Virus record (IMG/VR): IMGVR_UViG_3300050821_024088
Coordinates: 1 to 29,134 of that record
DNA: 29,134 bases
Source of the DNA: a virus
Strand: one strand, 5' to 3'
The translations under genes and the position numbers were made by a program. Position 1 is the stretch's first letter. Each line of letters starts with the position of its first letter. The notes beneath the pieces were generated by a model, which saw only the letters and a program-made list of their open reading frames with translations, was not told the DNA's origin and ran no database searches. Positions 383 to 26,079 of the stretch are shown here, in pieces.

Positions 383-700
383 TTGGTTCTTCGGTTCCCT
401 CGCTTGCTCTCCCGCCGCAACAACACAAAATCCCCATCTGAGATAGCGGCGGCGCGCACCGCCATCGCGCCTGCGCCAGTTGATCAACCACCCCATTACG
501 CCAGCTACAAGCCCCGCAAGCTAACCGCCGAACAACAGACGCGGCATGACCGGGTGTGCGAACTGTGGCGCAGCGGCAACGGTGTCAGAGAAATTATGCT
601 GGCCATGACTATGCCGAAAAGCACCGTCACATGGATCATCAACAAAAACGGCCTATGGGGCAAAGGCGGCCGAACGGCTAAATATCGGGGGAATGCATGA
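383..700 (+). CDS. Helix-turn-helix protein, start uncertain
   Basis: The frame encodes up to 105 residues. The C-terminal 55 look like a helix-turn-helix: RVCELWRSGNGVREIMLAM followed by PKSTVTWIINKNGLWGKGG, with the spacing of Hin/resolvase-like or GcrA-type domains. No ATG lies before that domain. The listed start is a TTG at 383, and another TTG lies at 404, so the true start is unclear and the gene could be 5'-truncated. The first 40 residues are basic and proline-rich and may not be translated. It overlaps the next gene by 4 bases (ATGA), which suggests co-translation with the nuclease-like pair. A DNA-binding role is inferred; the target is unknown. Confidence 0.5.
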   Translation: MVLRFPRLLSRRNNTKSPSEIAAARTAIAPAPVDQPPHYASYKPRKLTAEQQTRHDRVCELWRSGNGVREIMLAMTMPKSTVTWIINKNGLWGKGGRTAKYRGNA

Positions 701-1278
701 AGGCATCTGAAGCACAATGCGGAGCAGAACTATTCCAATTTCCAACCAACCAGGCGATCAATAGTCTTAGGGGTAACGTCCGTGAGAATAACAGGAACCT
801 GCGGCGCGGCGTAATATCTGAAATGGTTGCATGTGCTTGGCTTTCTGCACAAGGCTATGATGTTTTCAGAAACACATCACCATACGGGGACGCGGATATA
901 GTAATTCGTAATGGCTCTAAACTCACGGCAGTTGATGTAAAAACCGGCGTCAATGCTGATGGTCGTGGATACCTTCCTGGTAATCGACGAATGCAGGCTG
1001 CTCAGATCGCTTCTGGGGTAGAAATCCTTTATGTCTTTCCAGACGGACATTGCGCTTGGGGCCGAGCTATCGATCCGAAATACGGACAACCACCCGAAGA
1101 ACCAAGAAAGCGGATGAAAATAAAGGCGCAAGCGCCACCCCATCAAACGAAAACAGTGTGCATTCATTGTCGTGAACCATTCTCGCATGGGCGAAGAAAA
1201 AAGTTTTATTGCAGTGAATATTGTGGGTCGACGCATAGGCAGCGGCATGCTCGGCTCAGGAAGATGGCTGCATTATGA
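697..1278 (+). CDS. PD-(D/E)XK nuclease-like protein with C-terminal zinc finger, copy A
   Basis: This 193-residue protein carries the layout of a PD-(D/E)XK nuclease core. It has a helix with E42 (GVISE), a strand with D65 and D67 (GDADIVI), and a strand with D80 and K82 (AVDVKTG), followed by a core helix (QAAQIASGVEI). The order matches Holliday-junction-resolvase-like and restriction-endonuclease-like folds. A C-terminal module has CxxC (C155, C158) and CxxxC (C172, C176) pairs in a basic stretch, probably a zinc finger for DNA binding. The next gene is a diverged tandem paralogue, overlapping by 4 bases. GC counted over three sequence lines is near 48 percent, well below the structural genes. 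A nuclease fold is likely; activity and target are unknown. Confidence 0.7.
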   Translation: MKASEAQCGAELFQFPTNQAINSLRGNVRENNRNLRRGVISEMVACAWLSAQGYDVFRNTSPYGDADIVIRNGSKLTAVDVKTGVNADGRGYLPGNRRMQAAQIASGVEILYVFPDGHCAWGRAIDPKYGQPPEEPRKRMKIKAQAPPHQTKTVCIHCREPFSHGRRKKFYCSEYCGSTHRQRHARLRKMAAL

Positions 1279-1838
1279 GTACAAAGGGTTCGGCAGCGGT
1301 TCAGTTCTGTGAGCTATTTCAGGAACTAAAACAAGATGATAACGCCAATATCAGGTGCGGCCAGATCTCGGAACATGTGGCATGCGCTTGGTTCCTGTCA
1401 CAGGGATACGATGTATTCAAAAACATATCTCCTCATGGGGATGCCGATATTGTTGTGAGAAGGGACGGTAAGACGATCCCAGTAGATGTTAAAACCGCCA
1501 AACCAGATGGATCATTGTCGGCTCACCGGACAAAACAGGCTAAGCAGATAGCGGCCGGTGTCGAGATCGTTTATGTATTCCGCGATGGAAGATGCGAATG
1601 GGGGCGGGATGTAGACTCGGCATATGGTTGCCAGAGTGGTCGTATCCCTAAACCTCTTCCCGAGACGCCCATTATTGCAGGTATTGGGTGCGTTGGTTGC
1701 GACACGATGTTCGTTCCCACCGTCGCGCTGCGCCGCACACATAAGCAGAAATATTGCTCATACCTCTGCGCGCGAAGGACACGCGCGCGAAGATATCGCC
1801 GTCAACGCAAATTGCGGAGGGAAAATGCAGTTCAGTGA
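1275..1838 (+). CDS. PD-(D/E)XK nuclease-like protein with C-terminal zinc finger, copy B
   Basis: This 187-residue protein is a diverged tandem copy of its upstream neighbour. The core is conserved (E33 in QISEHVACAW, D56 and D58 in HGDADIVV, D71 and K73 in PVDVKT), as is the helix QIAAGVEIVYVF. The N-terminus, the linker after the core and the finger loops differ. The C-terminal cysteines are also retained (C139, C142, C161, C165), followed by a strongly basic tail. The start ATG overlaps the previous stop, and the end overlaps the next gene by 14 bases, so the three are probably co-translated. Keeping all predicted catalytic and metal residues in both copies argues that neither is a pseudogene. 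They could work as a heterodimer or recognise different sites; that is speculation. Confidence 0.7.
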   Translation: MSTKGSAAVQFCELFQELKQDDNANIRCGQISEHVACAWFLSQGYDVFKNISPHGDADIVVRRDGKTIPVDVKTAKPDGSLSAHRTKQAKQIAAGVEIVYVFRDGRCEWGRDVDSAYGCQSGRIPKPLPETPIIAGIGCVGCDTMFVPTVALRRTHKQKYCSYLCARRTRARRYRRQRKLRRENAVQ

Positions 1839-2487
1839 TGCGCCAAAATTCTTGCTGGAAAAGCGGGCGATCCCTAACAGGAAGGCAAGATCATCGTTGA
1901 AAACTGCGCGCAAACGAGCAAAAAAGGCTCATGGCAGATTTGACGGTGACACCGGCACTCCCGAAATGAAACAAAGGCAAAAGGTTGTGCTTGAGAATAG
2001 GGGATATTCTAGCACAGGATATGTGACCTCCGTCGGCGCGCGCGTCGAGGCCCAGCTGCCCCATGATCTCTATCGTATTCGTCGGCTGCTCGACCGCGAC
2101 AATGAATGGCGCAACCAGATTCTCTGGCAAGCCGCGGAACGTCTCAGGCAGGATTTCGAGGCATCCGGCCTGCAGGCCAAGATGTGCTCCAGCTTTGCGC
2201 CACGCGTCAGCGGCGGTGTGCAGCAATGGTCTGCCGACAAACAAGTCGACGCTCTGAAACGATACAAGAAGGCTGTTAACGCTGTAGGCGGTGATCTCGG
2301 CAGCGGCGCCGCACTGCGCTCCGCATTGTTCTACGTGGTCATTGAAGGCGTCCACGCAAGCGATTGGGCGCGTCGTAACGCAAAAACTCCGCAGGTTGGG
2401 ATTGAGATACTCCGATTGGCTCTCCTTGATCTGGCCCACCATTACGGGATCGCGAAAAAGGAAGATAGGAGCACAATACGCGCATGA
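1825..2487 (+). CDS. DUF6456-like protein, candidate late regulator
   Basis: The frame is open from 1624, but the ATG at 1825 is preferred. It has a strong GGAGGG ribosome binding site four bases upstream, and the earlier part lies inside the nuclease-like gene in another frame. The 220-residue product starts with a basic segment (KTARKRAKKAHGR). It then has a helical domain with ERLRQDFEASGLQ, a variable linker, VDALKRYKKAVNAVG, and an end resembling LRLALLDLAHHYG. That sequence of motifs is like DUF6456, a domain common in alphaproteobacteria, some members of which carry helix-turn-helix regions. In phages this position just before the late genes often holds a late regulator. The family match is from memory of the pattern; the regulatory role is inferred from position. 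Confidence 0.6.
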   Translation: MQFSDAPKFLLEKRAIPNRKARSSLKTARKRAKKAHGRFDGDTGTPEMKQRQKVVLENRGYSSTGYVTSVGARVEAQLPHDLYRIRRLLDRDNEWRNQILWQAAERLRQDFEASGLQAKMCSSFAPRVSGGVQQWSADKQVDALKRYKKAVNAVGGDLGSGAALRSALFYVVIEGVHASDWARRNAKTPQVGIEILRLALLDLAHHYGIAKKEDRSTIRA

Positions 2488-2776: not shown

Positions 2777-2918
2777 CTATGTGCGGTCGGTGACACTAGC
2801 CGCGCGTGTGTTAACGGCGGCAGTTCGCGGCGGCTTCAATGGTTTCTCCGGCCTGCTGAGCGAATGGACAGTCTGGAAAGACGGACAAATTTCAATCACT
2901 TGGAACAATAGAACAGGA

Positions 2919-3287
2919 ATGCCGGAATTCGAAAAGGGACAGAGCGGTAATCCGGGTGGAAGGCCCAAGAGACAGCTTTTCACCGAGGCGCTTCGCATTC
3001 AGGCTCTGCGGCCGGTTGAGCTTGATGAGAGCGGCCAGCCAAAGCTACCTGAATTGCCTAATAACCCACGCCAGATCGATGTCATTGCAAATACATTGAT
3101 AGTTGAAGCCAGGACGGGCGAGAATCGCACGCAGGCCATCAAGGAAATTCGCGACACGCTGCAAGGCAAACCGGCTCAATCACTCGAACACAGCGGCATG
3201 ATCGCCAGCACCCATGAAGAGCTTCTGAAACAACTCGATAACGAGACTGATGACGCCGACGGAGAAAGCGATACGCCTCCGGCTTAA
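2919..3287 (+). CDS. DUF5681 protein, candidate small terminase subunit
   Basis: The frame is open from 2781, but the ATG at 2919 places the conserved motif at the N-terminus, as in the family: FEKGQSGNPGGRPKRQ at residues 4-19. This is the hallmark of DUF5681, a domain found in phage genomes next to the large terminase. The 122-residue product continues with helices and ends in an acidic tail (NETDDADGESD). Its position immediately before terL and the 38-base overlap with it make it the best candidate for the DNA-recognition (small) terminase subunit. That role is inferred from position, since no classical small-terminase motif is visible. A purine-rich ACAGGA precedes the start. About 215 bases upstream are non-coding and hold promoter and terminator signals. 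Confidence 0.7.
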   Translation: MPEFEKGQSGNPGGRPKRQLFTEALRIQALRPVELDESGQPKLPELPNNPRQIDVIANTLIVEARTGENRTQAIKEIRDTLQGKPAQSLEHSGMIASTHEELLKQLDNETDDADGESDTPPA

Positions 3288-4686
3288 AACGGACTTTCCG
3301 TATTACGCTCCGCGATGCCTCCGAATTCATACCAAGAGCGGCAGCATTGAGCCGTTCCGGCTGAACAAGCCGCAACGCTATTTACATGAAACACTCGAAG
3401 CGCAGCGCGCCGCGACCGGAAAGGTTCGCGCCCTCGTCCTGAAAGGCCGCCAGCAAGGGGTGTCCAGTTACACCGAAGGCCGCTTTTTCTGGCGTGTCAC
3501 GCACCGTCGTGGCGCAAGGGTTTTCATCCTTACCCACATGGATGACGCGACGAACAATTTGTTCGGTATGGCCAAGAGGTTTTATGAAAACTGCCCGGAA
3601 GTTGTAAGACCTTCGCTGGCGGCCTCGAACTCCAAGGAACTCATTTTCGACGGGCTTGATAGCAGCTACAAGGTCGGCACGGCTGGCAGCAAGGGCGTAG
3701 GGCGAAGCGATACCATCCAGCTTTTCCATGCCAGCGAGTCGGCCTACTGGCCTAATGCTCAAATGCACGTCGCTGGAGCTTTGCAGGCAGTTCCTGATGA
3801 GCCCGATACCGAAATTATCATTGAAAGCACATCCGCCGGTCGCACAGGCCTGTTTTACGAGATGTGCGCCGCGGCCATGCGAGCGGAGGGGGAATATATC
3901 CTCGTCTTCATTCCATGGTTCTGGCAGCGCGAGTATCGGAAGCCGGTTACTGATTCGTTTGAACTGACAAGTGACGAGAATTCCTACCAAAAGACCCATT
4001 TGCTTCACGTGGAGCAAATGGCCTGGCGCCGCGCCAAGATTGTCGAACTAAACGGCGTCCACAACTTCAGGCGGGAATATCCCGCTACACCGGAAGAGGC
4101 GTTCAGCGCCGAAGTGCCGGGTGCGCTCTGGAAGCGCGAGCAGATAGACAATTTGAGGGTTCTGGGCGGAATTCCCGAACTCAAGCGCATTGTGGTTGCT
4201 GTCGATCCATCAGGGGGCGACAAGGACAGAAACGATGAAGTCGGCATAATCGTCGCCGGCATCGATGCGCAGAAACACGGCTATGTGCTGGCCGATCACT
4301 CCGGGCGCTACAGCCCCGAGACCTGGGCCAGCAAAACGGTCGCGCTTTACCGCCAATTCAAGGCCGACCGGATAGTAGCTGAGGCGAATTTCGGCGGCCA
4401 GATGGTCGAAAGCACGATCCGCGTTGTCGACAGGAATGCACCGGTCAAGCTTGTTCACGCTTCGCGCGGCAAGCAGGCCCGTGCCGAGCCTGTCGCGGCC
4501 ATCTACGAATCAAATCGCGCGCACCATTGCGGGACCTTCGTCGGTCTCGAGGACGAGATGGTGACGTGGGTGCCATTGGTGTCAACGGACAGCCCCAACA
4601 GAATTGACGCAATGGTCTTTGCATTAACCGAGCTTATGATCGATTCCGGAGGCGCAGCCGTTCAAACCAAAATCACCGGGTTCTAG
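3250..4686 (+). CDS. terL: Terminase large subunit (packaging ATPase and nuclease)
   Basis: This 478-residue protein is the DNA-packaging motor. The ATPase domain has a Walker A-like LKGRQQGVSS (about residues 64-73), in which the usual GKS lysine is replaced as in many terminases of this type. It also has a Walker B region ending FHASESAYWP (about 159-168) and a coupling-like IESTSAG (191-197). The RNase H-like nuclease domain starts with VAVDPSGGDKDRND (D319), continues with RIVAEAN (E378) and ends with NRIDAMVFAL (D453), the expected three acidic positions. Length is normal for the family. The ATG lies inside the DUF5681 gene, overlapping by 38 bases. The stop touches the portal start codon with no gap. 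It acts at the portal vertex of the empty procapsid. Confidence 0.95.
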   Translation: MTPTEKAIRLRLKTDFPYYAPRCLRIHTKSGSIEPFRLNKPQRYLHETLEAQRAATGKVRALVLKGRQQGVSSYTEGRFFWRVTHRRGARVFILTHMDDATNNLFGMAKRFYENCPEVVRPSLAASNSKELIFDGLDSSYKVGTAGSKGVGRSDTIQLFHASESAYWPNAQMHVAGALQAVPDEPDTEIIIESTSAGRTGLFYEMCAAAMRAEGEYILVFIPWFWQREYRKPVTDSFELTSDENSYQKTHLLHVEQMAWRRAKIVELNGVHNFRREYPATPEEAFSAEVPGALWKREQIDNLRVLGGIPELKRIVVAVDPSGGDKDRNDEVGIIVAGIDAQKHGYVLADHSGRYSPETWASKTVALYRQFKADRIVAEANFGGQMVESTIRVVDRNAPVKLVHASRGKQARAEPVAAIYESNRAHHCGTFVGLEDEMVTWVPLVSTDSPNRIDAMVFALTELMIDSGGAAVQTKITGF

Positions 4687-6063
4687 ATGCCGATCGATAC
4701 AGTACACCCGGCCTATGCTCAGAACGTCGAGCGCTGGAACCGCTGTCGCGCCGCATACGAAGGCGAAGACGCTATAAAGCACGCGACTGTTCAATATCTA
4801 CCACGCCTGTCCGGGCAGGAGAACAACGACTACGCCGCCTATCTTATGCGCGCCCTCTACTACGAGGCCGTAAGCCGGACGGTGGACGGGTATGTGGGGG
4901 CCATTGTTCGCAAGGCACCGGTGCTTCAGTTGCCTGGCAGGATCGGGGATTTCGAACAGGATACGACGGCATCCGGTATTGGCCTCGTCGAGTTTATCAA
5001 AAAGCTCTGCTGCGAGAACCTGCTGGCAGGTCGCATGGGCATTCTGGTTGACTTTGATGAGACGGATGATCGCGCCTATCTAGCCGCATATACCTCCGAG
5101 AGCATCACGAATTGGGGCGACGGATTCGTCGTTCTCAAGGAAACAGCCTACGTTCCGACCGATGAGTTCGGTCAGAAGCAGATAGAGCAATATCGCGAGC
5201 TGCGGCTAAGCGAGGGGAGATACGTCGTCACTATCTGGCGCCGCCCGGAAACCGCTTCGGGCAGCCCGGCTGCCAGCTGGACAATTCACGAAACGATAGA
5301 GCCGAAGAAGAAAGGCATCCGGCTGAAGGAACTACCCTTCTTCTGGCTTTCCTGTTTCGGACGTTCGGAGAAGATCGAGAAGCCGCCGTTGCTTGGCCTG
5401 GTCAATGTGGCCTTGTCACATTACCGCACAAGCGCGGACCTCGAGCATGGCCGCCACTTCACCGGTTTGCCTACGCTATGGGTAAGTGGCATTTCGGATT
5501 CTAACGCGCAGATCAGGGTGGGCTCCCAGGCGGCAATCCTGCTCAGCGATCCGGCTTCTAAAGTTGGCTACGCCGAGTTTTCTGGACAAGGGCTGGGGTC
5601 ACTCGAACGGGCCCTCGAATCCAAAGAGCACATGATGGCCGTGCTGGGCGCCGCCGTGTTCGCAGATCCCAAGAAAGGCGTGGAAGCCGCCGAGACGGCG
5701 CGAATCCGTACAAGCGGCGAAACATCGCTGCTCACGGGCATCGTGAGTGCCGTCGAAGAAACACTCGAGGCGGCGCTGCGGGCAGCGGCCGACTGGATGA
5801 GCGTCAGCGGCGAAATCGACGTCGCGATCAACCGCGAGTTCATCGACACAGATATCGATCCGCAGCTTCTGGCGTCGCTGCTTAAATCCTATCAGTCGGG
5901 CGCGATCAGTCACCACACTTTCCTGTTCAATCTCCAGAAAGCAGAAAGACTCGCCCCCGATCGCTCGATTGAGGACGAGAAGAAGGCCGTCATTGCCGAC
6001 CAGGCGCGGGACGCACCTGGCACCGATGACGACCAACAGCAACCGAGCCCGCGCGGCGCGTAG
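4687..6063 (+). CDS. Portal protein, DUF4055 family
   Basis: This 458-residue protein matches the DUF4055 group of phage portal proteins. It has an N-terminal YEGEDAIKHATVQYLPRLSG, the helical YYEAVSRTVDGYVGAIVRKAP, the segment LLAGRMGILVDFDET, and a later ALESKEHMMAVLGAAVF. Portals form the dodecameric ring through which the terminase pumps DNA and to which the connector binds. The gene starts directly after the terL stop and is followed by the scaffold, the usual order. The C-terminal 30 residues are charged and glutamine-rich (TDDDQQQPSP) and likely disordered. The family call rests on recalled motif similarity plus gene order, which agree well. Confidence 0.88.
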   Translation: MPIDTVHPAYAQNVERWNRCRAAYEGEDAIKHATVQYLPRLSGQENNDYAAYLMRALYYEAVSRTVDGYVGAIVRKAPVLQLPGRIGDFEQDTTASGIGLVEFIKKLCCENLLAGRMGILVDFDETDDRAYLAAYTSESITNWGDGFVVLKETAYVPTDEFGQKQIEQYRELRLSEGRYVVTIWRRPETASGSPAASWTIHETIEPKKKGIRLKELPFFWLSCFGRSEKIEKPPLLGLVNVALSHYRTSADLEHGRHFTGLPTLWVSGISDSNAQIRVGSQAAILLSDPASKVGYAEFSGQGLGSLERALESKEHMMAVLGAAVFADPKKGVEAAETARIRTSGETSLLTGIVSAVEETLEAALRAAADWMSVSGEIDVAINREFIDTDIDPQLLASLLKSYQSGAISHHTFLFNLQKAERLAPDRSIEDEKKAVIADQARDAPGTDDDQQQPSPRGA

Positions 6064-9574: not shown

Positions 9575-10473
9575 GCGACATTTCAGACTTGGAGAATGTT
9601 CTCGCCAATGAGGTGACGAACATCGTCTATCCGCAGATGCGTTTCGACGCGGGCGGCGCGGCTTGGGACAAAACTGGCGTTTACGACACGCCTGCCTCAA
9701 CAGCTCCCGATGCGACTGGGAAGTCGCCGAGCGTTTCAGGAACGCCAATTGTAGTCTATCCGGGTTGGCCGTCATCGGACAACCTGGCCAAAGCGCTCGC
9801 TGCAGGCGTCACCCACATTACCGTTTTCCCGCAGGCCATGGAGCGCAACACCACGCGCTATCAGGAACGCGAGCTAATTGTCATGCCGCCGGCGCCGACA
9901 CTAACGCTGGCGATCAGTAAAGACTTGGGCTCAGTCACGGTCGGCGGGACGGTCTCTGCGCCCCAAAATCTGGCGTTGCGGGTCAATAACAAATTCTACA
10001 CCTACGCCGTCAACACTGGCGACACTCTGAACAGCATCTCAGCCGCCCTTGCGGCGGCCCTCGCGGTCGACGTGTCTGGAACCAGCGCCATGGGGCCCGT
10101 CATCACCCTCGGCCCGTCTGGACGCCTTCAGGCGGCGCGCGTGGGTGGTTTCGCCACCATTGCCCGTGAGGTCAAGCGGCAGGAACGGGTGATGTCGATC
10201 ATCACTTGGGCCAACTCGGCGCAGCTCCGCGACCAGATCGCGGGCGCAGTCGATGCATCGCTGGCAGATACGCGGTTTCTGGATATGCCGGACGGTTTCG
10301 GTGCCCGTCTCATTTATAAGAATTCCATGGTGATCGATGCGCAGCAAAAGGCTGGGCTCTACCGCCGTGATCTCAATTACACGGTCGAATATGCGACCAC
10401 GATTTCGAAGCAACGCGCCGCTGTCATCGCTCCTACCAACAATCTGAACGCAGAATTCGCCATCACCTATTGA
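9571..10473 (+). CDS. Neck or tail-completion candidate with LysM-like segment
   Basis: The start is set at the ATG at 9571, which overlaps the previous stop (ATGA); the frame is open slightly earlier. The 300-residue product begins MSDISDLENVLANEVTNIVYP. It has a middle resembling a LysM-like element (YTYAVNTGDTLNSISAALAA, about residues 150-170) and ends with a beta-rich domain (LNYTVEYATTISKQ). The layout is like uncharacterised proteins that precede the sheath in contractile phages. They are probably tail terminator or completion proteins. The function is inferred from position only. Confidence 0.6.
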   Translation: MSDISDLENVLANEVTNIVYPQMRFDAGGAAWDKTGVYDTPASTAPDATGKSPSVSGTPIVVYPGWPSSDNLAKALAAGVTHITVFPQAMERNTTRYQERELIVMPPAPTLTLAISKDLGSVTVGGTVSAPQNLALRVNNKFYTYAVNTGDTLNSISAALAAALAVDVSGTSAMGPVITLGPSGRLQAARVGGFATIAREVKRQERVMSIITWANSAQLRDQIAGAVDASLADTRFLDMPDGFGARLIYKNSMVIDAQQKAGLYRRDLNYTVEYATTISKQRAAVIAPTNNLNAEFAITY

Positions 10474-21566: not shown

Positions 21567-22040
21567 ATGGCAATCAATCACACAAAACTGCATTATGCAG
21601 GCATCGCGCTTGCGCTCGGACTTTCCTCAGCGGCGCTCATTCACCAGCCATCGCCGCAAGTTAGCGTCAACCATGAGGTGCAACGCCAAGGCCGTGCCGA
21701 TTGGCCCGCGCTTGGCCAGAAAAAAAATGAAGATTTGGCCGATGCCCTGAAAGCGATTGGCACTGGCAAGGTCACGATCTACTGCGGCCAGCCGCATTGC
21801 AATGAACTGAAGCTCGATCTCGATGATGCTTTGCAGCTCGCGGGCTGGCAAAGCGACTTCGAAGAACGCATGGTCGAGAGCGAGGCCGACAAGGGGATCT
21901 TCGTCGGCCCTCCCGGTGATGCCGCCAACAAAATGATCGAGGCGCTCGACAAGATCGGCCTCAAGGCTACGCCCGTGAACATCACGGACGAAAACAGCAA
22001 TGCCATTGACGGCGTCGGCATCATCATCGGTCGCCGCTAA
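21567..22040 (+). CDS. Membrane-anchored protein of unknown function
   Basis: A 157-residue protein with AGAGGA before its ATG. An N-terminal hydrophobic segment, about residues 10-26 (AGIALALGLSSAALIH), looks like a signal anchor, so the remaining 130 residues would face the periplasm. That part has VTIYCGQPHCNELKLDLDDA, LAGWQSDFEERMVE, GIFVGPPGDAANKMIEALD and a final DGVGIIIGRR, an alternating alpha-beta pattern of an independent domain with two cysteines. I recall similar uncharacterised proteins in alphaproteobacterial prophages, but no function. It sits between two fibre genes, where fibre chaperones or moron genes usually lie. Confidence 0.65.
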   Translation: MAINHTKLHYAGIALALGLSSAALIHQPSPQVSVNHEVQRQGRADWPALGQKKNEDLADALKAIGTGKVTIYCGQPHCNELKLDLDDALQLAGWQSDFEERMVESEADKGIFVGPPGDAANKMIEALDKIGLKATPVNITDENSNAIDGVGIIIGRR

Positions 22041-22065
22041 CCAACTCAACATCCGGGAAAATGAC

Positions 22066-25000
22066 ATGAAAAATATCAGAGCCTCGGTCGCTCTGTTCCT
22101 GTTGGCGGTTTTCCTTGCCGCCACGGCGCACGCCAACACCTCCAGCGTGAATCCGAACGTCCCGGCCCAGAATTCACCCCTCTCTTCATCTGTCCTTCGC
22201 GGTAATTTTGCCGCCACACAGAGCGATCTAAATACTCTCTTCGGCATTCTGAACCTGAACTCGAACGAGCTTCTTGGCACGATCAATGCCGGAAATGCGG
22301 GCCCGCTAATTTTGCCCCCATGCGCCGCGGGCGCCCTGTCATGGACGCCGGCTGTGGGCTTCGGCTGCAACGCCTTAGGCGGCGGCTCCGGAAGCAGCGC
22401 ACTATCGGCAATCACGGGAGCTGTGGCGAGCAATTCAATTGAGAACGGCGCCTTCACGCAAACATGGGCTTTTGACGCACTTACTACCCAGACAGCCATA
22501 GATGTAACCGGCACCGGCGTTACGACTGGCGCTCTGGTTAAGAGCGAAGCTACCAACCCGTCGGGTTCAGGCTATGCCGCCTTTTTCCGCAACACTAGCA
22601 CTGCGACGGGTTACGGGCTTTACGCCACGGAAGACGGTGCAGCGAATACCGGGTATGCGGGGTACTTCAACAACACGGCGACTGCAACAGGGTACGCGCT
22701 CTATGCGAACGGCACTGCGCAGATAAACGGCAGTCTGACGGTTACCGGCACATGCACAGGTTGCGGTAGTGGCAACCCCACCAGCCTAGCCGGGATCACC
22801 ACAGGATTCTCGGATGCAAACTACGGGACTGTCACTGCAGAAGGCAGCCCTCTTTACCGCAACAATGCAGGCGGTGTTTCAGGTCTTACGTACGATGCCT
22901 CCGTCAAAACAGCGCAGCGTTTCGAAGCGGCCAATATGCTTGCGCTTATTACCGAGCGCCGCGATGCCGATCCCTACATCAATGGTGCTGTTTGCAATGC
23001 TCAGGAAAGTGATGCGGCAGTTATGGCGGTTGGCTCTAACCAACTGTTCATAACCGGCCACACATTCACCAGTGCCGAAATCAACGAAGCGGTCGCGGTA
23101 AACGATACGCGTTCGAGCGGAGCATCGGGCACGGGTGAAACGACGATTACATCTATCGGGCCTAGTGGTGCTTATGCTGTTCTCGCAGCAAATTCTACCT
23201 ATGGCGTTGGAAACGGATTCGCGAAAGGTTGGGTAGTCTGGGGGCATGATGATAGCAACGCGATTCAAAATGCGGTTGTTAATGGCGTATTCTACGGCTC
23301 TCTCGTTCACATTCCGGATCACTGCTTGTTCCATGATATCGTCGTGCCAAGCGGCGCGCATATCGTTGGTAACGCTAAAGCGCGCCTTTACACGGGCTCG
23401 GGTGGATATAACGAAAACACCATCTATTCGCTACCAGTAGAATTTTATCTCGGCACAGGCTACGCCGATGGCAATTCGAAATATATGTGGGATGTGACGC
23501 ATAGTACCAACGTTGTGATCGAAGGCCTGGCTATGTTCGGCGCGGTATTCCCGTTCGGAAATGACTACGCCGGAAGCAATGGGGGACTTGCGAAGCGGGG
23601 CACGTTTATTGGCTCCGATACCGGAAACGTATTAGTCGGCCTGTCGGGTGGCTATGTGGACCAAATGGTTGTCGCAAACAATACATTCTCTAATTTGTGG
23701 AATGGTGTCGGCGGCCCTTATGCGAGCGCCAACAGCGGCTTCATGTCCGGGAAGGTTTTGCATAATGAATTTATCAATATGGGTTGGGGCATTAAAGGTA
23801 AGTGGGTAGATTTTAATTTTGACCAGGGCAACGTTTATACCGGCGGTTATGCGCACGGCGCGGTAGATATAGAACCGGGTTCCGCTGGCGGCAGTATCGA
23901 AGGTGGACGTGCCGAAGAAATCGCCGGTATCAATAACACTACATCGCAATCAGCCTTTTGGATTAACGGCGGCGTAGATATCCATATTAGTAACGTCGAA
24001 TGCCAATTTAATTACGGCGCGTGCTTACAAGTAAGCGGTCCATGGTCCGGAGTTTCGTGGTCCGGCGGGTTCATGGAAGGCGATGGCGTATCGCTGGCAT
24101 CGGCTCAACAGGCGCATGTCATTATGGATACTGTAAATGGTTCGGGTGGCGCATTAAATTTCGGTGGCTTAACTTTATCCAACGTTATTTTCTATAAGCA
24201 CAATTACAATGCGGGCGGCGACTCCAAATATATCGTCGCGGGTACGGCAAATCTAGCTGGCGCTACTGTTGATATCGAAGGCGGTTCTGCTTGCACCAAC
24301 GGATTCACAACTTCGCTATTTAGTTGGGCGGGTTCGGCACCCACGAATATCACAGTTAATACAGCCGATTGTCCAAAGACCCGCGCGGGGCAATCTGATT
24401 ACAGCATTGTCAACGGTCAGGTTGGCATTGGCACAGCGACGCCTACGGCAGGGGTCGCCCTCGACATGCTAAGCAATACTACGAGCGCAAATAGCAGCGT
24501 CGGTCTGCCAAAGCATTCCTCGGCGAACCGCCCAGGAACACCGGTCGCGGGCATGTTTGGATATAATAGCGACATTGGCGCGGTGGAAGTTTATGCCGGC
24601 TCGGCATGGAACCAACTCCCCTCGGTTACGACTGGAGCTGCGCAGCCTGGCTATGTGATGCAGTCGACCACGACTGGCACTGATGCCGCGCAATGGGTTC
24701 CTGCCACATCGGGGATTACGTGGCCGACTTCGGCATCGCTGGTGATCAGCAACGCGACGAGTTCACCAGCCGGCTTAGCGCCAGTGAATGGCGATTGCGT
24801 GGTTGGAAGCGCTGGTGCGTGGGTTGCTGGCTCGTGTTCGGGAACCGCAAGCATAAATCTCGGGAGCAGCACAACCGGAGCAAACCCGCAAATTACGGGT
24901 GATGCAACATCAGGTTTCTACACTCCCGCCGCGCAGCAAATTGGAATGGTCTTGGGGGGCAACGTAAGCGCTCTCTACGAGACGACTACAGGGGCAGTTA

Positions 25001-26079
25001 ATTATCCCGTCTTTTTATCGGAACCGACCGGCACCGCCGCCGTCTGGACCATTGGCGGCACAGATACAAATGGCACGGGCCTTGGTATAGCAATCAAAGC
25101 TCTCACGGCAACCGCCACGGGTATAGGTGGAGCAGTAGCGATTACCTCCGGAAACGGTTTGAATACGGGGGCAGGGGGCGCTGCTTCATTCACAGGCGGT
25201 GCAGGCGGCACTTCCGGCGCTGGTGGAGCATTAACGTTTACGGCAGGGAACGGCGGTGCATCAGCCGGTGCGGGCGGCGCTCTCTCCTTTACCTCGGGTA
25301 GCGGGCAGTGTAGCGGTTGTTCAGGCGGCGCTTTTACGATTGCTTCCGGTAACGCGAACAACGCCACCGGCCCTGCGGTTAATATCACCGCGGGATCGAC
25401 AACATCGGATCGCGTTGGCGGCTCGGTGAATATTACTGGCGGCATCGGCCCCGGTAATGCAAGTGCTGGCGGTGTCAATATAACAGGTGGCGCGAATACG
25501 GATGCTGCAGCGGCAAGTGCTTCCGGCGGACCGATTAGTATTACCGGCGGGAGCAATACAGCTAGTGCTAGTTTCACTAACGCGGGCGGAGGCGCTGTCA
25601 CGGTTCAAGGTGGCGGCTCCAATAACGGTGCGGGCGGTGCGGTTACCATCAAAGGCGCAAACGCCGCTGGAAGTGCAAATAATAATGGCGGTGCCGTCAC
25701 TATCCAGGCTGGCTCGAAGACAGGAACCGGGGCACAGGGCGTTGTTATCATTAATACGGCCGGCGCAACACTCGCAGCCGAATTCGATGGCAATCAACAT
25801 CGTTCATATGGCGGCGCTGCGCCAGCTATTTCGTCCTGCGGAACGAGCCCATCTGTAGATGCCCACGCGACCGATACGACCGGAACAGCGACGGTAGGAT
25901 CAGGTTCGCCGACATCATGCACGATAACATTCAACAAAGCATATGCGACGTGGAACCATTGCCGGATTACCCCACAGTCAGCCTTGGCATCGTTTGCATA
26001 TAGTTATAGCCTAAGCGCGATCACCATCAATGGAGCGGCGCTTTCGGGCCAGATAGATTGGACTTGCGATGGGCAATAA
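22066..26079 (+). CDS. Giant fibre/tailspike-like protein with signal peptide and beta-helix
   Basis: Read from the ATG at 22066 this is 1337 residues; the frame is open 22 codons upstream inside the previous gene. Residues 1-22 are a Sec-type signal peptide (MKNIRASVALFLLAVFLAAT, cleavage after AHA). Domains in order are: a fibre-like N-terminal region; repeats of the type YAAFFRNTSTATGYGLYA; and, from residue about 394, a right-handed beta-helix opening with DDSNAIQNAV, as in pectate-lyase-fold tailspikes. The helix runs to about 770. Next come HSSANRPGTPVAGMFGYNS, common in phage fibres, a glycine-rich repeat at about 1020-1232, and a C-terminal tip with paired cysteines (CGTSP, SCTITFNKAYATW, DWTCDG). 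The role is probably receptor binding or polysaccharide depolymerisation. A signal peptide is odd for a tail protein. Confidence 0.82.
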   Translation: MKNIRASVALFLLAVFLAATAHANTSSVNPNVPAQNSPLSSSVLRGNFAATQSDLNTLFGILNLNSNELLGTINAGNAGPLILPPCAAGALSWTPAVGFGCNALGGGSGSSALSAITGAVASNSIENGAFTQTWAFDALTTQTAIDVTGTGVTTGALVKSEATNPSGSGYAAFFRNTSTATGYGLYATEDGAANTGYAGYFNNTATATGYALYANGTAQINGSLTVTGTCTGCGSGNPTSLAGITTGFSDANYGTVTAEGSPLYRNNAGGVSGLTYDASVKTAQRFEAANMLALITERRDADPYINGAVCNAQESDAAVMAVGSNQLFITGHTFTSAEINEAVAVNDTRSSGASGTGETTITSIGPSGAYAVLAANSTYGVGNGFAKGWVVWGHDDSNAIQNAVVNGVFYGSLVHIPDHCLFHDIVVPSGAHIVGNAKARLYTGSGGYNENTIYSLPVEFYLGTGYADGNSKYMWDVTHSTNVVIEGLAMFGAVFPFGNDYAGSNGGLAKRGTFIGSDTGNVLVGLSGGYVDQMVVANNTFSNLWNGVGGPYASANSGFMSGKVLHNEFINMGWGIKGKWVDFNFDQGNVYTGGYAHGAVDIEPGSAGGSIEGGRAEEIAGINNTTSQSAFWINGGVDIHISNVECQFNYGACLQVSGPWSGVSWSGGFMEGDGVSLASAQQAHVIMDTVNGSGGALNFGGLTLSNVIFYKHNYNAGGDSKYIVAGTANLAGATVDIEGGSACTNGFTTSLFSWAGSAPTNITVNTADCPKTRAGQSDYSIVNGQVGIGTATPTAGVALDMLSNTTSANSSVGLPKHSSANRPGTPVAGMFGYNSDIGAVEVYAGSAWNQLPSVTTGAAQPGYVMQSTTTGTDAAQWVPATSGITWPTSASLVISNATSSPAGLAPVNGDCVVGSAGAWVAGSCSGTASINLGSSTTGANPQITGDATSGFYTPAAQQIGMVLGGNVSALYETTTGAVNYPVFLSEPTGTAAVWTIGGTDTNGTGLGIAIKALTATATGIGGAVAITSGNGLNTGAGGAASFTGGAGGTSGAGGALTFTAGNGGASAGAGGALSFTSGSGQCSGCSGGAFTIASGNANNATGPAVNITAGSTTSDRVGGSVNITGGIGPGNASAGGVNITGGANTDAAAASASGGPISITGGSNTASASFTNAGGGAVTVQGGGSNNGAGGAVTIKGANAAGSANNNGGAVTIQAGSKTGTGAQGVVIINTAGATLAAEFDGNQHRSYGGAAPAISSCGTSPSVDAHATDTTGTATVGSGSPTSCTITFNKAYATWNHCRITPQSALASFAYSYSLSAITINGAALSGQIDWTCDGQ
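25123..25764 (+). repeat. Glycine-rich degenerate coding repeat in the giant fibre
   Basis: About 215 residues are built of degenerate units of 12-20 residues around GGA(V/L/F)(T/S)(F/I)T.G, such as GAGGALTFTAGNGG, GGSVNITGGIGPG and GGAVTIQAGSKTG. Each unit is probably one or two strands of a repetitive beta shaft. The DNA units differ in synonymous positions, so this is an old repeat, not a recent tandem copy. Confidence 0.75.

Follow-up and report, generated by a model that had tools for sequence, protein, structure and literature searches.

Tandem genes for predicted PD-(D/E)XK nucleases with zinc-finger-like tails in a viral DNA record

Near the start of the virus record IMGVR_UViG_3300050821_024088 (positions 1 to 29,134; this whole stretch of 29,134 bases is called the window below) two adjacent genes encode related nuclease-like proteins, here named A and B. 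The pair raises the questions of where it came from, why both copies are kept, and which DNA the proteins might cut. Profile matches in the window include genes for scaffold, major head, sheath, tape-measure and baseplate proteins, and these mark the record as a fragment of a contractile-tailed phage or prophage.

The locus as an accessory cassette

All features given here lie on the plus strand. Gene A (697..1278, 193 aa) and gene B (1275..1838, 187 aa), each encoding a predicted PD-(D/E)XK nuclease with a C-terminal zinc-finger-like tail, are complete ORFs, adjacent and overlapping as an initial annotation made from the DNA letters had read them. The overlap is of 4 bases, ATGA, and the genes are probably translationally coupled. 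Upstream is the gene of an HTH protein (383..700), whose stop overlaps the start of A. This protein has a match to a Sleeping Beauty-type HTH (E 3e-6, below the cut-off) and a relative in a kin contig, L040. Downstream follow a DUF6456 gene (1825..2487), a DUF5681 protein in the position of the terminase small subunit (2781..3287), the terminase large subunit (3250..4686) and the portal protein (4687..6063). Far beyond these, after the tail genes, an ORF of 1359 codons (22000-26079) differs from its neighbours in having a flat codon-position GC, with a GC3 of 0.55.

The GC content is 48.5% in A and 51.4% in B, compared to 59.0% in the whole portal gene and 56.3% in the window. The initial annotation was thus right in finding A and B lower, but it overstated the contrast by taking about 65% from a line of the portal gene, where single 60-base lines are higher than the gene as a whole. 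The contrast is stronger for GC3: most head and tail genes lie at 0.64-0.72, A at 0.40 and B at 0.50, and this low GC3 suggests that A and B are of foreign origin.

The terminase large subunit, used as the query for finding kin phages, is common to twenty contigs. Ten terminase-kin records were searched whole and contained neither A nor B, and kin have a DUF6456 gene without A/B before it. In L040 the HTH gene directly adjoins DUF6456 with no gene between them. The motif ATGAAGGCATC(T/C)GA found at the start of A (696..710) also begins the DUF6456 gene of L040, right after the HTH gene, with 14 of the 15 bases identical. Since kin lack A/B and the flanking genes are directly adjacent in L040, the pair is an accessory cassette, and the earlier proposal that these genes were acquired is borne out to the extent that they are accessory and probably foreign. 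The simplest reading is that the A-B cassette was inserted at the DUF6456 start. It is also possible that it was lost from L040 between two similar start sites, but such a loss would need repeating in other kin.

The same features bear on the idea of a selfish or homing-type cassette, in which A and B would be finger-targeted, sequence-specific endonucleases that spread by cutting genomes without them at the HTH-DUF6456 junction. The kin without the cassette, the empty L040 junction and the low GC3 speak for it, the best fold match (see below) is to the homing enzyme I-Ssp6803I, and the finger region weakly matches phage HNH endonucleases. However, the empty site comes from one kin contig only, no intron or intein is seen, homing does not need two copies, and in T7-like phages the relatives of the core keep a set place between primase-helicase and polymerase. 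Homing is regarded as unlikely.

Fold, active site and family of the two proteins

AlphaFold2 models were built from alignments of 49 and 40 sequences. The cores of A (residues 29-130; 781..1086) and B (residues 20-118; 1332..1628) are mostly modelled with pLDDT above 90, and the secondary-structure elements come in PD-(D/E)XK order. Foldseek gave I-Ssp6803I (2ost) and the archaeal resolvase Hjc (1gef) as the top matches for both proteins, with VIA Z scores of 10.3 and 9.4 for A and 10.1 and 10.0 for B, respectively. SPARDA nuclease domains and UPF0102 are also found among the structural matches (Foldseek, VIA-align). A profile search of the PDB sequences has UPF0102 (1e-4), 2ost (0.006) and 1gef (0.02) as its top three, while phmmer with B against the same sequences returned noise only. 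Both proteins display the alpha-beta core and the catalytic E...D...(D/E)xK that define the PD-(D/E)XK superfamily, and the predicted structures thus confirm this core fold, as the initial annotation had proposed.

The catalytic E-D-D-x-K set consists of E42, D67, D80 and K82 in A and of E33, D58, D71 and K73 in B. In B numbering, E33, D58 and D71 do not vary among 49 relatives, and the conservation of K73 is 90% or higher. Judged by these residues, the active sites of both copies look intact. All the catalytic residues named earlier are present, and this set is the part that stands; a further aspartate, D65 in A and D56 in B, is not conserved among the 49 relatives.

The core belongs to a known family. 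It is matched by phrog_5018 with E-values of 1.3e-9 (A) and 1.3e-12 (B) in PHROGs, where no curated cut-off is given. All nine members of set A2 match the same group, which carries no function annotation. In Pfam both proteins stay below the curated cut-offs. The pair scores 22.2 and 19.4 bits with UPF0102/YraN (PF02021; cut-off 23.6) and 14.8 and 17.7 bits with PDDEXK_5 (PF11645; cut-off 26.1), and neither A nor B matches Pfam Hjc (PF01870) at E 1. One relative reaches PDDEXK_5 at E 2.5e-9, and one matches Hjc at 0.029.

The family resembles archaeal Hjc, YraN/UPF0102 and I-Ssp6803I, and each comparison has its limits. I-Ssp6803I, the top structural match (Z about 10), shares the PD-(D/E)XK core, but the identity is about 15%, and A/B have no intron context and carry an added finger tail. 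Hjc has the same fold (Z 9.4-10.0) with acidic and lysine motifs in a like order, whereas A/B go unreported by the Pfam Hjc model and add both the finger tail and the tandem copies. YraN/UPF0102 (3fov) is the best Pfam and NCBIfam similarity, covering the core only, with scores below the curated cut-offs. Predictions by Feder and Bujnicki placed YraN- and AHJR-like nucleases, phage proteins included, in the PD-(D/E)XK superfamily (PMC1189080).

The nearest described member is gp36 of Synechococcus phage P60, which has the core, motifs and fold in common with A/B. It differs in being 99 aa long and fingerless, and the two P60 copies are dispersed, not in tandem. Among viral structures the closest match is to a P60 protein of the same length (UniProt 'Holliday junction resolvase', Q8W6V7), which is presumably gp36 itself. 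In the P60 record (AF338467.2, locus L009) the family members are located at 33062-33352 and 9609-9884, and T7 endonuclease I at 5559-5933.

The tails of A and B contain aligned CxxC...CxxxC cysteines, C155, C158, C172 and C176 in A (1159..1224) and C139, C142, C161 and C165 in B (1689..1769), in agreement with the cysteines noted earlier. In the AlphaFold models this region forms short strands followed by a long helix, and the Pfam matches are to treble-clef and zinc-finger types, all sub-threshold. The tails are best described as zinc-finger-like and treble-clef-like, and they are predicted to bind zinc. Membership of A/B in the HNH group was rejected, as the finger region alone matches HNH profiles, and weakly. 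The finger of lambda NinG/Rap (PF05766) is weakly similar to that of a relative, L012 (E 0.0014, below the cut-off), and Pfam searches did not find it in A or B.

A C-terminal CxxC...CxxxC finger is found in ten further relatives, all single-copy, the last pair being slightly altered in L142. Across nine aligned fingers, invariance is limited to the four cysteines and a single serine. Three other relatives (L004:7812-8384, L149:4734-5387 and L151:4860-5357) have the finger at the N-terminus, which is a swap of domain order within the family. The ten C-terminal and three N-terminal cases indicate that the finger recurs as a module in this family and is not confined to the window. In the literature searched, no paper on the recurrent finger fusion was found. 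The earlier view that no described family has this core-plus-finger layout could nevertheless not be upheld: the core is that of phrog_5018 and P60, and ten or more further phage contigs have the layout. The core is thus not new, and the unusual part is the finger-bearing tandem arrangement.

An old duplication kept as a pair

The cores of A and B are identical in 59 of 102 residues (58%; BLASTP, E 5e-39), while the DNA is 55% identical over aligned codons and the third codon positions 37%; dS was not computable by either method tried. The strong divergence claimed by the initial annotation thus applies to the DNA and not to the core protein. The two are reciprocal best matches at 58%, with other relatives at about 40% or less, and they cluster in the tree with support 99/90. 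One spurious row lies inside this cluster, next to B; it is a long-branch YraN-like sequence (L026) and was disregarded. Separate acquisition of A and B was rejected because the reciprocal matches are far above all others and the two group jointly in the tree. A duplication made by the assembly was likewise rejected, given that the DNA identity is just 55% over aligned codons. A and B are an old tandem duplication, the age following from the 37% identity at third codon positions, and the comparison of these two sequences suggests that constraint at the protein level has preserved both.

Constant co-occurrence of two copies finds no support in the family, since 26 of the 29 family-bearing records have one copy. 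The exceptions are L111, whose two copies are core-only and in tandem, and two records with a pair of dispersed copies, P60 and G428. The finger-bearing tandem pair was seen in the window alone. The L111 genes (215-520 and 507-827) overlap and are found in a T7-like contig, where the next gene resembles a Cas4-domain exonuclease of L016; as the tree does not place these copies as sisters, this pair arose differently.

The retention of both genes could be explained by an obligate A-B heterodimer, in which each subunit would recognise its own arm or half-site of a DNA target that is asymmetric. Known relatives with the PD-(D/E)XK fold act as dimers or tetramers, the gene overlap suggests coupled translation, and all catalytic and cysteine residues are kept in both proteins at a third-position identity of 37%. 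On the other hand, there are relatives that have this layout in a single copy, which means that the layout works as a homo-oligomer, and an obligate heterodimer is considered improbable. The same low weight is given to a more specific version, in which A and B would be the unlike halves of a dedicated heteromeric endonuclease, a split Hjc-like duplicate where each finger half reads a different arm of asymmetric branched DNA.

Genomic context and a possible role in branched-DNA processing

Relatives are numerous among viral contigs. A marine-type query gave at least 588 among the matches listed (600 candidate stretches), and a mixed query 231. Single-protein scans of viral contigs with A or B alone yielded no close relative, nor did a search of genome contigs with the A/B alignment. 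A wider alignment recovered two fingerless Rhizobium prophage-like loci from the genome contigs; 397 genomes of the order of Rhizobium added no further loci, and plasmids gave no match. In the T7-like phages examined the family member lies next to the primase-helicase and DNA polymerase genes or in between the two. Neighbours of the relatives comprise primase-helicase, DnaB, DNA polymerase, SSB or clamp loader, and other relatives are found beside terminase genes. In L016 (4027-4518) and L017 (4357-4848) the family member comes immediately after a protein that resembles, by eye, another type of PD-(D/E)XK nuclease, and two unlike nucleases thus seem to be adjacent.

The profiles of RusA, T7 endonuclease I and RuvC had no match in 25 of the 30 family-bearing records tested. 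Taken together, the fold, the conserved active site, the replication or terminase genes that neighbour the relatives and the missing profile matches in these 25 records speak for a branch-resolving role. The closest viral structure, the P60 'Holliday junction resolvase', agrees with this. That A and B process branched phage DNA (branches or junctions) before packaging is the most likely role and is given nearly an even chance. This proposal starts from what was computed for the pair, namely its fold, catalytic residues, homology, cassette structure and family distribution, and is predictive as to oligomer, substrate, cleavage and timing. Each protein would act as a dimer, either a homodimer or an A-B heterodimer. 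The finger and the basic C-terminal helix would bind the DNA, and the core would cut, in a metal-dependent way, the branched intermediates of replication and recombination, which would let the DNA be packaged.

The fold alone leaves the substrate unfixed, and the top structural match is a homing enzyme. For one recombinant UPF0102/Hjc homologue activity was not detected (PMC10140301), which makes the fold by itself weak evidence of substrate. Promiscuity on branched DNA is typical of viral resolvases (PMC3864405). Against a role as sole resolvase stand three finger-bearing phages (L012, L134 and L138) where RusA is found alongside the relatives. T7 endonuclease I accompanies core-only relatives in P60, L157 and L013, and a match in L016 is below the cut-off. 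Given such coexistence, the family cannot simply be equated with 'the' resolvase. The seven terminase-kin records tested had no match to RusA, T7 endonuclease I or RuvC besides having no A/B, and this indicates that the function is dispensable or supplied by the host. A good many of the records are fragments.

The presence of a dedicated resolvase beside some relatives, and the accessory, low-GC nature of the cassette, could instead fit proteins that degrade the DNA of the host or of rival phages, for takeover or exclusion. The relatives, however, belong to modules for replication and packaging, the window shows no partner for immunity or modification, and the PADLOC defence profiles gave no convincing match to A/B, with partial PDC-S01 and Cas4 matches only (E 0.0014 or weaker). 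Such an attack role is therefore judged quite doubtful. An origin of A/B from a defence system was tried as a separate candidate and is unsupported, the PADLOC matches being partial and weak.

At this locus a core of a known kind carries a finger fusion that recurs elsewhere, in a tandem arrangement that is rare. It connects the zinc-fingered versions of other phages with a large family of phage nucleases, present in hundreds of contigs, many of which are marine and T7-like. As a natural duplicate pair, A and B allow it to be asked whether such copies split the labour or form a heterodimer. If the family does resolve branched DNA, this would give a name to a gene found beside many phage primase-helicases.
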